DNA from: Aurantiochytrium sp. KH105
Lineage: Eukaryota > Sar > Bigyra > Thraustochytrida > Thraustochytriidae
DNA: 64,000 bases
Assembly (NCBI GenBank): GCA_003116975.1
Contig: BGKB01000026.1
Coordinates: 62,001 to 126,000 of the forward strand
Direction: 5' to 3'
Below, in pieces: positions 53,266 through 58,726 of the stretch. The number at the start of each line of letters is the position of its first letter. The first letter of the stretch is position 1. The notes below the pieces were generated by a model. The model ran no database searches, was not told where the DNA came from, and saw nothing but the letters and a program-made list of their open reading frames with translations. Position numbers and translations under genes: made by a program.

Positions 53266-53425
53266 TGCTCGAGTTCTTCACTCCCCCAGCGGGAGAAAAA
53301 CTCCTGTGATGGATGTGACTGAAGATACATACTGTGGCCATGGTGGGTTCGCACACAAGGCCTTGCTTGGGCGTGCCAAACAGCTAACACACCCTCTTGG
53401 CCCTCGCGCCGCGGCGCGACCGCGC

Positions 53426-53444
53426 GGCAGGCAGGCAGGCAGGC
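53426..53444. repeat. (CAGG)n tetranucleotide run
   Basis: About four CAGG units in the leader region of the WD40-CAAX gene. Confidence 0.85.
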
Positions 53445-53736
53445 GGGCGCGCAACGCGCAAGCCAGCAGCCCCCTCCCTCTTGGGCCCCTTCCTCGCGCG
53501 CGGGCGCCGCCGCGGCACGCTCCGTCCGTCGCGCGCCCCGCGGAGAACGAACGCGCCGAGGCCGCAGCCAGGCTCTTTCTCCCAGCGCGCCCTTCGTTCC
53601 CTCCCCTCGCCCGAGAGTCTCCGTCTCTCTCTCTGCTTTCTCGCCCCCTCTCCGCCGCAGCCGCTCGCTCGCGGCGCGTCTCCGCGGCGCTTGCCCGCCG
53701 GCGCGCCCGCCCGCCCTCGCTCCCCTCGCCGCCGCC

Positions 53737-54762
53737 ATGGGCCGCATCGAGGGCGACGTGTACGGCGTCGCGCAGTCCGCCGACCTCGTGCTGGCCGCCA
53801 GCTGGAACGACTGCTCGTTGCGCGCGTGGAACAAGGAGGACGGCGCCCTCGTCTTGGAGATGAAGACGCCCAACAACAGAGAGGCCTTATCAGTGGCCGT
53901 GCAGGGCAAGCTAGCCGCCTTGGGGACTGCTGGAGGCGGCCTCTTCCTGATTGACCTGGCCACCGCCTCCGTCCTGCACGCCCTCCAGGGCCACACTATC
54001 GCTGTCCAGAGCGTCATCTTCGACGGCAACGAGATCATCTCCGGGGCCGAGGACGAGACCGTCCGCGTCTGGGACAAGATCAGCGGCCGAGAGACCTTGA
54101 GGATCGACGCCGGGGCGGAGGTCTTCGGCGTTGCCGCCCACGAGAACTTGCTCGTGGTCGGGTTGTACGACTACACCGTGCGCGTCTTCGACCGGGCCAG
54201 CGGCGGCCCACGCCACGTCCTCACGGAGGCGACAGGCCAGGTCTACGCGGTCGCGATCGACGCGCAGCGCATGGTGAGCGGGTCCTTTGACAAGAAGGTG
54301 AGGGTCTACGCCGTGCCTTCCTTCGAACTCCTCCACGTTCTCGAAGGACACACTGTCTGGGTGCGCTCTGTCGCGCTCCAGGGAGACCGCGTCGTGAGCG
54401 GGTCCTTGGACAACACGGTCAGACTCTGGGACGCGCGCAGCGGTGACTCGCTGCACGTCTTGCAAGGACACTCGAAATGGGTGTTCTCGGTCTCTCTCTT
54501 GGGGTCGGAGATCGCGAGTGGTTCTAAGGACAAGAGCGTGCGCATCTGGGACGCAGAGACGGGCGCCTCAATGCGCGTGCTGGACGGCACGGAGGCCGTG
54601 CGGCCCATCGAGGAAGTCCTTGCATCGCCTGTGGAAGTGAATTCAGAGAAGCCTGTCAAAGAAGTACTTGTATCGCCGGCGGAAGTAGAAGCAGAGCTGA
54701 AACCGGCACGGTCAGATGAGGACCTTCCTGCAAAGCTGTGCCCTACTTGTTCGATTTTGTAA
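53737..54762 (+). CDS. WD40-repeat protein ending in a CAAX box
   Basis: A 341-aa protein. Residues 1-285 form seven short WD blades of about 40 residues, several very regular (ISGAEDETVRVWD, VSGSFDKKVRVYA, VSGSLDNTVRLWD, ASGSKDKSVRIWD). A Val/Glu/Pro linker (PVEVNSEKPVKEVLVSPAEV) leads to the C-terminus CPTCSIL. CSIL fits a CAAX prenylation motif with Leu at X, favouring geranylgeranylation, so the propeller may be tethered to membrane. CCPTC-like spacing gives a second Cys for palmitoylation. I recognise no named family. The F-box/TRAF7-like blade style suggests a binding platform. The ATG at 53737 begins the first blade. Its stop is 122 bp from the convergent TIR-methyltransferase gene. 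Confidence 0.82.
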   Translation: MGRIEGDVYGVAQSADLVLAASWNDCSLRAWNKEDGALVLEMKTPNNREALSVAVQGKLAALGTAGGGLFLIDLATASVLHALQGHTIAVQSVIFDGNEIISGAEDETVRVWDKISGRETLRIDAGAEVFGVAAHENLLVVGLYDYTVRVFDRASGGPRHVLTEATGQVYAVAIDAQRMVSGSFDKKVRVYAVPSFELLHVLEGHTVWVRSVALQGDRVVSGSLDNTVRLWDARSGDSLHVLQGHSKWVFSVSLLGSEIASGSKDKSVRIWDAETGASMRVLDGTEAVRPIEEVLASPVEVNSEKPVKEVLVSPAEVEAELKPARSDEDLPAKLCPTCSIL

Positions 54763-54884: not shown

Positions 54885-57800
54885 TTAGGCGCTCGCCTTT
54901 TCCTTGGCAACATCAAGTATGCGCTGTTCGACGACCTCAACCCACTTGCTGTCCAAATCGCATCCGGCCGATTGTACACCCTCGAGCATGGCCGCTACGA
55001 CAGCACTTCCGGTTCCAAGAAAAGGCTCAAGTACGAGAACATCATCCTGCAACATCTTTTCGAACGAGTCGTCCTTCTTGTCGTTGTTGTCGTCGCTGTT
55101 ACCACCACCGCCACCGCCGCCGCCGCCGCCGCTGCTGTCATCCTCGTTTTCAAAAGACTTTTGCAGGGCCGACCGCTTACGCCTCTTGGCAATGTCCACA
55201 GCACTCCGGACAAGAGCGCGCATCAGCGCAAGAGGTTTCTGTGCAGGATGCCAGGCGTCCCCGCCGAGACGCTCAGGAGCCTTACATTTTTCAAGCTGCC
55301 ATACATTGGCCGCATCCGGGGCGAGCAGCTCGGCTACAACATCCTTGAAGCCGACTGCAGAGGCCTTCGAGCGACGAAAGATGAGGACAACCTCGATGCA
55401 GTCGCGAACGACTTGAGGAGCATCAAAAGTCGGAGCGTGCTTCATTTGCGGATTGGAGTCAATAAATGCCCGCCGCCAGGCGGCATCCGGCTTATACCAT
55501 ATCGCCGATTCAACCAAAACCTCTGGCGCGGGATCTGGCGACGACTCGTGCAGGGGGGCCGCGCCTCTCGCAGTGCGCAGCTCATGCATCCAATACGAGG
55601 CATAGGTGACGTCAGTGAATGCGAAGCCGATACCTTCCGGAGCTAATGCGCGCACCATGAGACGCGCCCATCGCTTGATTTTAGCAATGAACTCTTGATG
55701 GCCCATTTCATCCCAGGCCGTGTCGATTGCGCGATTGTACGGTGCATCTGATACAATCACATCAGCCAGACCCGAGGGGGCGCACGAGAACATGTCTTCC
55801 ATGCTCATTGTTAAAGCGGCTGGGACACAGTTTGCACAAGCTACATTTTCTGCAGCAACCTTGTCCTTCAACTGCTGGTATACATTGCCGAACGCGGACG
55901 GCTGACGGGAGAGATTCGAGCGTATTTGCTCGAGCAAAAGATTGATCTTTGACCCGCTCTTGTGAATGGCGTATTCGCGGATCTTTCGCGTCAGTGCCAG
56001 AACCTCATTGGTGTCCGAGAGATGAGGACGGCTCAAGACAATCCAGTCCACAAACTGCAAACCTTCGTCAATGTGTCTCTTCCACTCCGCGCTACTGTGT
56101 TTCGTTGCGGCGTAGCGATCATGCTTGCGCATGAGTTCCAGCATCTCGACCTTGCACTCGAGCAGGCTAACCGGGTTGCCGCCGTAATCCTTGACCTGGT
56201 CCATGAGGCCATTGTGCGCTTTTGTATAGCAGGCCCAAGCCGTGGTTGGGTCCCAAGAGAGATCCCTCGCGCAATGCCTGGCCTGATCGAGGAGAGTCAT
56301 AAAGACGCGGGGGTCGAGAGAGCCGAAGCCGACCTTTTGCTTCTCTTCTCCCATGATGAGAAACTTGAAAGCCTCGTCCGAATCTCTGCTTACCTCGCGC
56401 TGCTGCGGCGGCTGGGCGGGGTCGCTGCCGTTCTTGCTTTCATGTTCACAGTCCTCAAGAAGATCGCGCACCTTGCCGAGAAAAACATAACAAGCACCGA
56501 GAGAAGGCAGGTGCCTGTCTTCATCCTTTTCAATCGCCTCCTGAAGCTTTCTTGATTCTTCGAGAAAGTCTTGTGCCTCACGAAGCTTTTTCACTCGATC
56601 GTTGAATGGAGCTGATGACGTTTTGTGCTTCTCGAGGAAGAGAACATAAGTACGCCCAATATTGTAAAGAGACTCGTGAATCAGGGCGTGATTGTTTTTT
56701 CTGCGGAGTTGGAGGGACTCATCAAGATACCCAAGCGCCTCTTCGATCCGAGCAGGATCACGCCGATCTCCGAGAACGCGCCCCAAAGAGTTCAAATTGA
56801 CGGCGAGCTCGATTTCAAGCTCTTGCAGAATGGATGGCTTTTGAACCTGGGCCTCCCTGATGAGCTCGCGTTGGATGTCGATGGCTTCCCCGCAGACCTG
56901 GGCAGAACGTGTCTTTCGGCCCATAATATGGTAAATTCGAACAAGGTTGTTGAGCGAGTTAGCCTTCTCCCTGTTGTCAATGGTAAAGTTCAAAAGCATG
57001 TTGTTGTACAGCTTGTCCGTGCCCTGGGCTTGCCATTTGCTAATCAAAGTGTCTGCGGTACCGATCAGCAAACTCGTGACGGCACCAATGACGCGCTTGG
57101 TGGCCAAATCCTTGCCGAGGCCGCTCTCAATTCTTTCCATGATAAACTTTCGGTCTTTTGAGAGAAGACAATCGCTCCTCTCCACGTCAATGTTTTTCAA
57201 CATTTTCACACAGAGATTAATCTGATGTTCCTCATTGCGGCTGAGGTCTTCGCGACTTCGCGTGTACGAGTATGCGACGCTACGGAGTTCATTGGTCATT
57301 TTGGGCGTGAGTGCCAGGAGGACCTTTTTATTCTCTTCAAGCGCTGTCGTGATCTCGAGCCAACACCAGGAACGCTGCATGACGAGAGCATCCCAGGGCG
57401 CGAGGACAAGAACTGCGCCCTCTCGAGAGTTCTTGATGACGCGTGAAAAATTGTTAAGATCCGCCTCGCGCTCCTGATTGAGACGCAGGTTGACCTCCTC
57501 GTCGGCGTGGTAATGCTGGTTGACAGCGAAAATATCGAGCCAGAAGCGTTTTTTGCAGTGTTCACTGAAAGTGTCCGACCCGGACGTGCTCGGGTTTTTG
57601 AGGGCTTCGACCAAAAGCTCAAATTTGTCGCCCCAGGCATGACTCACGAAAAAATCGGCAGGCCCAAACCATCCAATCTCGCGGAATTTCTCGAGAGAGC
57701 CCGATAGATCTTCACCATCTGTCATGCTCGGGCCGAAATCAGCTTCGCTTCGGGGTGGTTCGGAATCAAGGCTGTTCACGCTCGATTCTCGTTTGACTCG

Positions 57801-58043
57801 GGTCGTCGTCCGCGCCTTGGAGAGCTCTCGAAATTCGGGAGGTTCAAACTTATCGAGCTCGTCCCTGAGCGTCTGCACGTCCTCCGAATCTCTGTGCATC
57901 TCGAAAAAGTCGACCATGTTGCTCGCAGCTTTCATTGTGAGTCCGCGAATCGAGTACTCGGCTGGATCCGCGTCGTACACGACCTTGTCGCCTTCAATTC
58001 TAGGCAGCTTGCCAAAGCCATGGACGAGCTCAGATGTCTTCAT
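54885..58043 (-). CDS. TIR-like domain + TPR repeats + beta-class DNA amino-methyltransferase fusion
   Basis: One intact frame, 1,052 aa from the ATG at 58043. About 125-290 is a TIR-like domain: ADFFVSHAWGDKFELL (strand A), RFWLDIFAVNQ, and SWCWLEI, with Glu230 at the position of the catalytic Glu in TIR NADases. About 320-720 contains tetratricopeptide-like helices (EALGYLDESLQLRRKN, SLNNLVRIYHIMGR). About 740-1050 is a methyltransferase with motif IV SDAPYN (Asp766-Tyr769), motif X HPAQKP (His932) and motif I FLGTGS (1008-1013) in that order. This is the beta-class order of N6-adenine/N4-cytosine enzymes. A poly-Gly insert separates X and I. DAPY departs from the usual DPPY. A stop precedes the GTG at 58106, but AACAG there could be a splice acceptor, so an upstream exon is possible. 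Confidence 0.9.
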   Translation of the reverse strand: MKTSELVHGFGKLPRIEGDKVVYDADPAEYSIRGLTMKAASNMVDFFEMHRDSEDVQTLRDELDKFEPPEFRELSKARTTTRVKRESSVNSLDSEPPRSEADFGPSMTDGEDLSGSLEKFREIGWFGPADFFVSHAWGDKFELLVEALKNPSTSGSDTFSEHCKKRFWLDIFAVNQHYHADEEVNLRLNQEREADLNNFSRVIKNSREGAVLVLAPWDALVMQRSWCWLEITTALEENKKVLLALTPKMTNELRSVAYSYTRSREDLSRNEEHQINLCVKMLKNIDVERSDCLLSKDRKFIMERIESGLGKDLATKRVIGAVTSLLIGTADTLISKWQAQGTDKLYNNMLLNFTIDNREKANSLNNLVRIYHIMGRKTRSAQVCGEAIDIQRELIREAQVQKPSILQELEIELAVNLNSLGRVLGDRRDPARIEEALGYLDESLQLRRKNNHALIHESLYNIGRTYVLFLEKHKTSSAPFNDRVKKLREAQDFLEESRKLQEAIEKDEDRHLPSLGACYVFLGKVRDLLEDCEHESKNGSDPAQPPQQREVSRDSDEAFKFLIMGEEKQKVGFGSLDPRVFMTLLDQARHCARDLSWDPTTAWACYTKAHNGLMDQVKDYGGNPVSLLECKVEMLELMRKHDRYAATKHSSAEWKRHIDEGLQFVDWIVLSRPHLSDTNEVLALTRKIREYAIHKSGSKINLLLEQIRSNLSRQPSAFGNVYQQLKDKVAAENVACANCVPAALTMSMEDMFSCAPSGLADVIVSDAPYNRAIDTAWDEMGHQEFIAKIKRWARLMVRALAPEGIGFAFTDVTYASYWMHELRTARGAAPLHESSPDPAPEVLVESAIWYKPDAAWRRAFIDSNPQMKHAPTFDAPQVVRDCIEVVLIFRRSKASAVGFKDVVAELLAPDAANVWQLEKCKAPERLGGDAWHPAQKPLALMRALVRSAVDIAKRRKRSALQKSFENEDDSSGGGGGGGGGGNSDDNNDKKDDSFEKMLQDDVLVLEPFLGTGSAVVAAMLEGVQSAGCDLDSKWVEVVEQRILDVAKEKASA

Positions 58044-58726
58044 CCGGCTAAAATTCTTGGGTTCGCGCTCCTTTACAAAGGCCGCAAACCGTAGAAGAAA
58101 ACCCACTGTTTAACGTGTTGCGGAAATTCCGTAGCGTTAGTCAACGTGTTTTTATATTGCTTGCCGGCTCGAGGCCAAGAGCAACATCTTCTTTGAGAAG
58201 GATTAAACGTACAGGAGACACCTCGGCTGGCCTGCTTGCAGTCATCGTTCGTTTTCGCATCGATGGCGGCACGCTGCTTGCCGTCCGTCGCGTCTCTCCA
58301 TCTGTTGAGCTTGTCTACGTCTGTTTTGTCGCCTGTATCGACGCACTGGGGCGGCGTTGCCGTGTACATCTTGCTCTAGGCCCGCCTTGCGCAAGTGCGT
58401 GTAATCGGCGCGCGTGCTTAGACAGCCGAGCGAGCGATCTCACGCACACGAGCGGGCGCACGTCAACTATTTCTGGTCGGCTGTTTGCGGCCTTAAGATC
58501 AGCCGGCCGAATCAAGTTCAATAAAGTCCAGTCTAGTCCAGGTCTGGCCGGCCGACCGAGCCGAGCCGAGTCAGGCGGCCGCGGCACCGCGCCCGGCCGA
58601 GCTCCGTGCAGCTCCCGCCGCGCTCCACTTCTGCCGCGCGCGCGCGCGTGCGGTAAGCTGGCTCGCGTCGCGTATTTGCTTGCTCCGTGAACTTACTTGC
58701 TTGTGAGAGCCATCAGCAGCAGTCAG

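Follow-up and report, generated by a model that had tools for sequence, protein, structure and literature searches.

The window, a stretch of 64,000 nucleotides from the thraustochytrid Aurantiochytrium sp. KH105 (contig BGKB01000026.1, positions 62,001 to 126,000), carries on its minus strand a reading frame in which a TIR-like domain is followed by helices weakly resembling TPRs and then by an amino-methyltransferase (MTase) of the permuted beta class. As the initial annotation had stated, 54885-58043 is a single stop-free frame, of 1052 residues. The complete open run measures 1074 codons (3222 nt); 300 order-1 Markov simulations of 3222 nt each had longest six-frame runs with a median of 179 and a maximum of 475. 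The features are given below, with residues numbered from the Met at 58043.

58213..58369 (−): first exon, 157 nt, beginning with ATG; its translation is the N-terminus of P0002, a Hondaea protein
58106..58212 (−): intron 1, 107 nt, GT-AG (GTACGT...AACAG); its excision yields the RGVSLGFLL of P0002
54885..58105 (−): main exon including the stop codon, frame uninterrupted
57294..57671 (−): TIR-like domain, residues 125-250
57354..57356 (−): Glu230, last residue of R-S-W-C-W-L-E; canonical TIRs have their conserved Glu at the aligned position
55899..57008 (−): TPR-like helical region, residues 346-715 (TPR_12 24.8 bits, TPR_10 23.2 bits, both under cut-off)
55820..55906 (−): junction stretch between the TPR-like region and the MTase, 87 nt, in-frame, GT-AG; an intron in the Hondaea gene model, open in the window
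54888..55811 (−): permuted beta-class amino-methyltransferase, residues 745-1052 (PF01555 E 1.8e-13; phrog_67 E 7.7e-23; hhalign 99.7%)
55734..55751 (−): motif IV, SDAPYN, residues 765-770 (DPPY in the relative P0003)
55233..55250 (−): motif X, HPAQKP, residues 932-937
55173..55187 (−): basic cluster KRRKR, residues 953-957, directly before the insertion ahead of motif I
55005..55031 (−): motif I, LEPFLGTGS (SAM binding); FLGTGS is residues 1008-1013

The gene itself is probably longer than this frame. The upstream residues of P0002 map exactly to 58369-58213 by way of the GT-AG intron at 58212-58106, and on this alignment a first exon, overlooked in the initial annotation, and an intron probably precede the main frame, giving a protein of 1125 residues in which the Met at 58043 is probably internal. 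Removal of intron 1 is supported by sequence similar to the resulting RGVxLxFxL stretch in two further relatives, P0003 and P0006, and P0003 also carries residues upstream of this Met. Whether the 87-nt junction stretch is spliced or retained the frame is kept, and alternative splicing there could give two isoforms. Scans of the window with Rfam at the gathering threshold and for tRNAs gave no matches.

Recurrence of the fusion and its N-terminal parts

When the MTase part of the full protein was searched against 5.8 billion proteins, two of 7598 candidates matched at E ≤ 0.001: P0002 (the database entry 'Methyltransferase [Hondaea fermentalgiana]') and P0003, which both share the three-part architecture of the window protein. 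When both modelled introns are removed, P0002 departs from the window protein by 3 substitutions and two length changes within one low-complexity stretch; since the two are nearly identical, independent support comes from P0003 only, which is 51% identical over the MTase query region and 44% identical over the full length. When the window protein (P0001) is compared with P0003 part by part, the TIR core is identical at 70/138 positions, the TPR part at 142/359, the junction at 6/29, and the MTase at 152/271, so that the MTase is the best-kept part while the linker drifts.

The triple fusion in one gene is therefore real, as had been proposed from the frame, for an accident of the frame would not recur in P0002 and P0003. 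The frame accident was ruled out by the architecture of P0003 together with the open-run simulations. That two adjoining genes were instead joined by chance or by an assembly error is very improbable: the possible 87-nt intron at the junction in the Hondaea model speaks for it, but the fusion recurs in both relatives and the frame is open throughout.

From 2844 candidates, a second search based on residues 118-420 retrieved 8 proteins, with P0002 and P0003 among them. Another of the 8, P0006, a transcript-derived protein of 703 residues with 32% identity, runs co-linearly over residues 1 to about 700, beginning at the RGVxLxFLL N-terminus and taking in the TPR region; it stops where the MTase would start, with no MTase part. 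The simplest reading of this co-linearity is that the MTase was appended to a pre-existing TIR-TPR gene, although P0006 may instead be a paralogue or a protein that has shed its MTase.

We name the first domain TIR-like because it misses the Pfam TIR cut-off: none of the Pfam TIR models was reached, TIR_2 scoring 13.4 bits (E 0.11) against a cut-off of 28. The TIR call of the initial annotation thus falls short at the level of the Pfam score, but the catalytic-type Glu that it reported is present. Glu230 closes the RSWCWLE motif at residues 224-230, aligns with the canonical TIR Glu at the alpha-C position, and belongs to an R-x-W-C-x-x-E pattern found in 17 of 17 aligned rows, the window row counted. 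Alignment by hhalign to six canonical TIRs from the same genome gave 92.6% (E 4.4e-7, 91 columns); a TIR-versus-MTase control with canonical TIRs gave 0.3%. A profile search of PDB sequences with the domain returned only a Toll-like receptor, at E 0.14. Foldseek of the predicted TIR model gave no match at E ≤ 0.001, its top rows being non-TIR; in VIA-align, TIR domains from SARM1, RUN1, and AbTir are among the top rows. The assignment as TIR is drawn from the hhalign result with the own-genome canonical TIRs and from the putative TIR fold of the predicted model. A TIR tree of 17 rows groups P0003 with the window/Hondaea pair (93/89) and has P0006 as the next closest by path; the window row lies on no starred branch.

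The TPR-like helices of the initial annotation are likewise visible as TPR_12 and TPR_10 matches, but at scores below the cut-offs; for TPR_12 the cut-off is 30.1, and P0003 comes closer to it (29.0) than the window does. Profile matching thus suggests homology of this part to TPRs only weakly. Among eight own-genome relatives scanned, TPR_12 rose above its cut-off in six, and the two nearest to the window protein were the two below it (C88 at 18.5, C59 without a match).

The methyltransferase domain and its origin

The C-terminal domain matches the Pfam model N6_N4_Mtase (PF01555) with 51.4 bits in the window and 55.9 in P0003, at a cut-off of 26.7. Its motifs follow the order IV - X - I (residues 765, 932, and 1008) with HPxQKP and FxGxG, which is the permuted beta class. 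Alignment by hhalign to nine prokaryote and phage MTases, which had themselves been chosen as tblastn matches of the window MTase domain, gave 99.7% (E 1e-26, 218 columns), compared with 1.4% for the TIR-like profile against the same nine. The AF2 model of the MTase has a mean pLDDT of 48 and lends the MTase no structural support.

The initial annotation had called this a complete beta-class MTase. SDAPYN, HPAQKP, and FLGTGS are present in the order it gave, but motif IV reads DAPY in both the window and Hondaea, one position away from [DNS]PP[YFW], and not DPPY as in P0003. Across 50 viral loci, drawn from 600 stretches listed and partly by means of a DPPY pattern, motif IV was DPPY in 34, SPPY in 5, DPPF in 1, of other forms in 3, and not recognisable in 7; DAPY occurred in 0 of these 50 partly DPPY-selected relatives, the 7 without a recognisable motif included. 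Judged by sequence, homology to beta-class amino-methyltransferases is not in doubt despite the DAPY. Activity in the window/Hondaea lineage is uncertain on account of it, and the domain might be catalytically weak or dead there, its task within a TIR-TPR signalling protein then being to bind SAM or DNA. The Gly/Asp-rich stretch before motif I, which spans 41 residues in the window and about 13 in P0003, would fit such a loss along with the altered motif; motif IV retains its Asp, second Pro, and Tyr, HPxQKP and FxGxG are intact, and no part of the protein is better conserved than the MTase, so we regard a weakened or dead enzyme as unlikely. The KRRKR cluster is missing from P0003 at the corresponding place and is a possible nuclear signal of the window lineage.

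As to substrate, the PHROG (phrog_67) and PADLOC (MTase_II) matches are DNA or Type II MTases. The PDB sequence profile matches comprise the DNA MTases MboIIA, CcrM, and RsrI, together with 8urk and 9c3u, which are named only 'Methyltransferase'. NCBIfam models, CcrM and TIGR01177 among them, are matched at scores far below their cut-offs. Amino-MTase folds serve on RNA and protein elsewhere, and the motif I region is matched at E 2e-4 by TIGR01177, whose name does not specify DNA; action on RNA or protein instead of DNA would nonetheless be quite unlikely given the named PDB matches, the PHROG and PADLOC assignments, and the permuted IV-X-I order with HPxQKP. The likeness to MboIIA, CcrM, and RsrI, all beta-class adenine DNA MTases, consists of a sequence profile match and shared motif types; those are free-standing bacterial enzymes, unlike the fusion in the window.

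By its profile the MTase is homologous to prokaryotic and phage enzymes, which bears out in part the earlier suggestion that it came from a bacterium or a virus; with a long stem in the tree, the two sources are not told apart. In that 52-row MTase tree, the three protist rows group as a single clade (100/100) whose stem, amid viral and plasmid MTases, measures 2.29 changes per column, and the clade joins no donor among these. The tree contains no bacterial chromosomes, its bootstrap had not settled, and the window row has an odd letter make-up; 9 of the 50 viral loci (those under 230 residues or without [DNS]xP[YFW]) and L055 were left out. A search of the 5.8 billion proteins with the stand-alone MTase gave nothing at E ≤ 0.001 among the 7999 scored candidates sharing most words. 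By tblastn at E ≤ 1 the MTase found 195 phage and 64 plasmid records, weak or short only, with best listed E values of 5e-3 (phage) and 2e-4 (plasmid), none spanning 80% of the query. Two peptide patterns per collection, in a search that hardly sampled bacterial chromosomes, led to 62 genome-contig and 52 viral-contig stretches, in which no close MTase relative was confirmed.

Genomic setting

In the 76-Mb assembly of 367 contigs, PF01555 has one match, the fusion gene. MT-A70 has two, and the C5 DNA_methylase model three. The MT-A70 matches, at G000:C167:74560-75126 and C37:153535-153927, one of them with three in-frame TGA (introns not accounted for), are a possible additional route of adenine methylation. 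Of the five flanking proteins scanned, four carry CTNNBL, EMP70, WD40, and JmjC_2, and one is without a Pfam match at 1e-5. Given its predicted intron and the flanking CTNNBL, EMP70, and JmjC_2 genes, the fusion is a resident eukaryotic gene. Contamination and viral insertion were considered and ruled out by the same intron and eukaryotic neighbours.

TIR domains abound in this genome, with at least 150 TIR_2 matches (150 of 150 scored, out of 258 candidates). Six of seven further TIR proteins scanned have WD40-Roc-COR-TIR, Roc-COR-TIR, ankyrin-TIR, or TIR-NPHP3_N-WD40 architectures, and such matches amount to a large NLR-like repertoire in a thraustochytrid. Further TIR-TPR proteins are present as well, which makes the MTase the odd part of the fusion: in C88, C59, C21, and others a TIR-like domain is likewise followed by TPR or TPR-like helices, but, unlike the window gene, these are without an MTase. 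Two closely similar paralogues, L021:1918-6618 and L022:1514-6637, share the TIR-like module, can be aligned with the TPR part over one region, and carry long N- and C-terminal parts lacking a Pfam name, the C-terminal one receiver-like by eye only. Adjoining the fusion gene, a WD40 ORF at 53737-54762 (+) of the window resembles a solo or truncated copy from a WD40-Roc-COR-TIR family; its region has 54 matched pieces elsewhere in the genome at 67-90% DNA identity, mostly on about 53376-54620, several of them a few kb from TIR_2 matches.

Proposed function and known systems

We propose that a captured DNA amino-MTase on a host TIR-TPR scaffold constitutes a recruited, signal-gated DNA methyl-writer, a reading to which we assign a probability of about 0.55. 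A thraustochytrid TIR-TPR signalling or scaffold protein would have gained a DNA amino-methyltransferase of prokaryotic or phage type at its C-terminus. The MTase would use SAM to methylate DNA at an exocyclic amino group, its place or time of action would be set by the TIR-like and TPR parts as these oligomerise or bind partners, and the Glu-bearing TIR may additionally cleave NAD; the target could be the cell's own chromatin or invading DNA. Counting against this proposal are the DAPY, the low pLDDT of the MTase model, the TIR and TPR scores below the Pfam cut-offs, the low NCBIfam scores, P0003 as sole independent support, and the chance that P0006 is a paralogue or has lost an MTase. For the methylated base, adenine-N6 is a better guess than cytosine-N4, since DPPY is associated with N6A enzymes and SPPY with N4C enzymes (PMC8885841).

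The same parts could serve defence, with the TIR-TPR portion sensing foreign or unmodified DNA or a viral product, the MTase marking self or foreign DNA, and the TIR depleting NAD or making a signal. The richness of the genome in TIR matches, WD40-Roc-COR-TIR and ankyrin-TIR proteins among them, the TIR-type Glu in all aligned rows, and the SARM1, RUN1, and AbTir domains near the top of the structural alignment are in keeping with it. A nuclease is absent from the five flanking proteins scanned and TIR-TPR proteins could equally serve ordinary signalling, and we consider a defence role improbable. The self/non-self and NAD-regulated roles suggested in the initial annotation are likewise hypothetical. 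Similarly doubtful is a switch for defence or epigenetic control within one eukaryotic protein, which would physically couple TIR signalling based on NAD to bacterial-type adenine DNA methylation, the activated TIR-TPR scaffold directing methyl marking of self or foreign DNA.

The initial annotation knew of no described protein joining all three parts. The architecture was not found among the papers listed on Hondaea, Aurantiochytrium, thraustochytrids, or labyrinthulomycete DNA methylation, on TIR domains with TPRs or adenine methyltransferases, or on eukaryotic N6_N4_Mtase, as judged by title and start of abstract in a survey with preprints and most subscription papers outside its scope. The words Hondaea, Aurantiochytrium, and thraustochytrids are absent from the main text of PMC12344493. 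The same protein, however, had already been deposited as the Hondaea fermentalgiana 'Methyltransferase' (P0002), an entry named for the MTase alone. PMC12695648 treats eukaryotic 6mA by way of MT-A70 enzymes, and 'thraustochytri' and 'N6_N4' are absent from its main text. Plant TIR-NBARC-TPR (TNP) proteins, which are described in PMC9153377 together with TIR NADase activity and uncharacterised oomycete ankyrin-TIR proteins, resemble the fusion in having TIR and TPR in one protein, but as described there they place an NBARC between the two and have no MTase, and the TIR of the window is of a divergent type.

Comparable in kind is a PF01555 enzyme captured by bdelloid rotifers, N4CMT, which writes 4mC and which was stated to have no eukaryotic homologs (PMC8885841). 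It too is an amino-MTase of permuted bacterial type that resides in a eukaryote and is joined there to a targeting domain of eukaryotic kind, but it combines SPPY with a chromodomain where the present family combines DAPY or DPPY with TIR-like and TPR parts; Pfam scans of the window protein and P0003 found no chromodomain. The fusion combines known kinds in a new way, as a beta-class MTase in a eukaryote joined to a divergent TIR-TPR module. A further case, from a thraustochytrid and with an immune-type domain as partner, would suggest repeated recruitment of such enzymes by eukaryotes through different targeting domains, and the fusion offers a directly testable link between TIR/NAD signalling and the marking of DNA.
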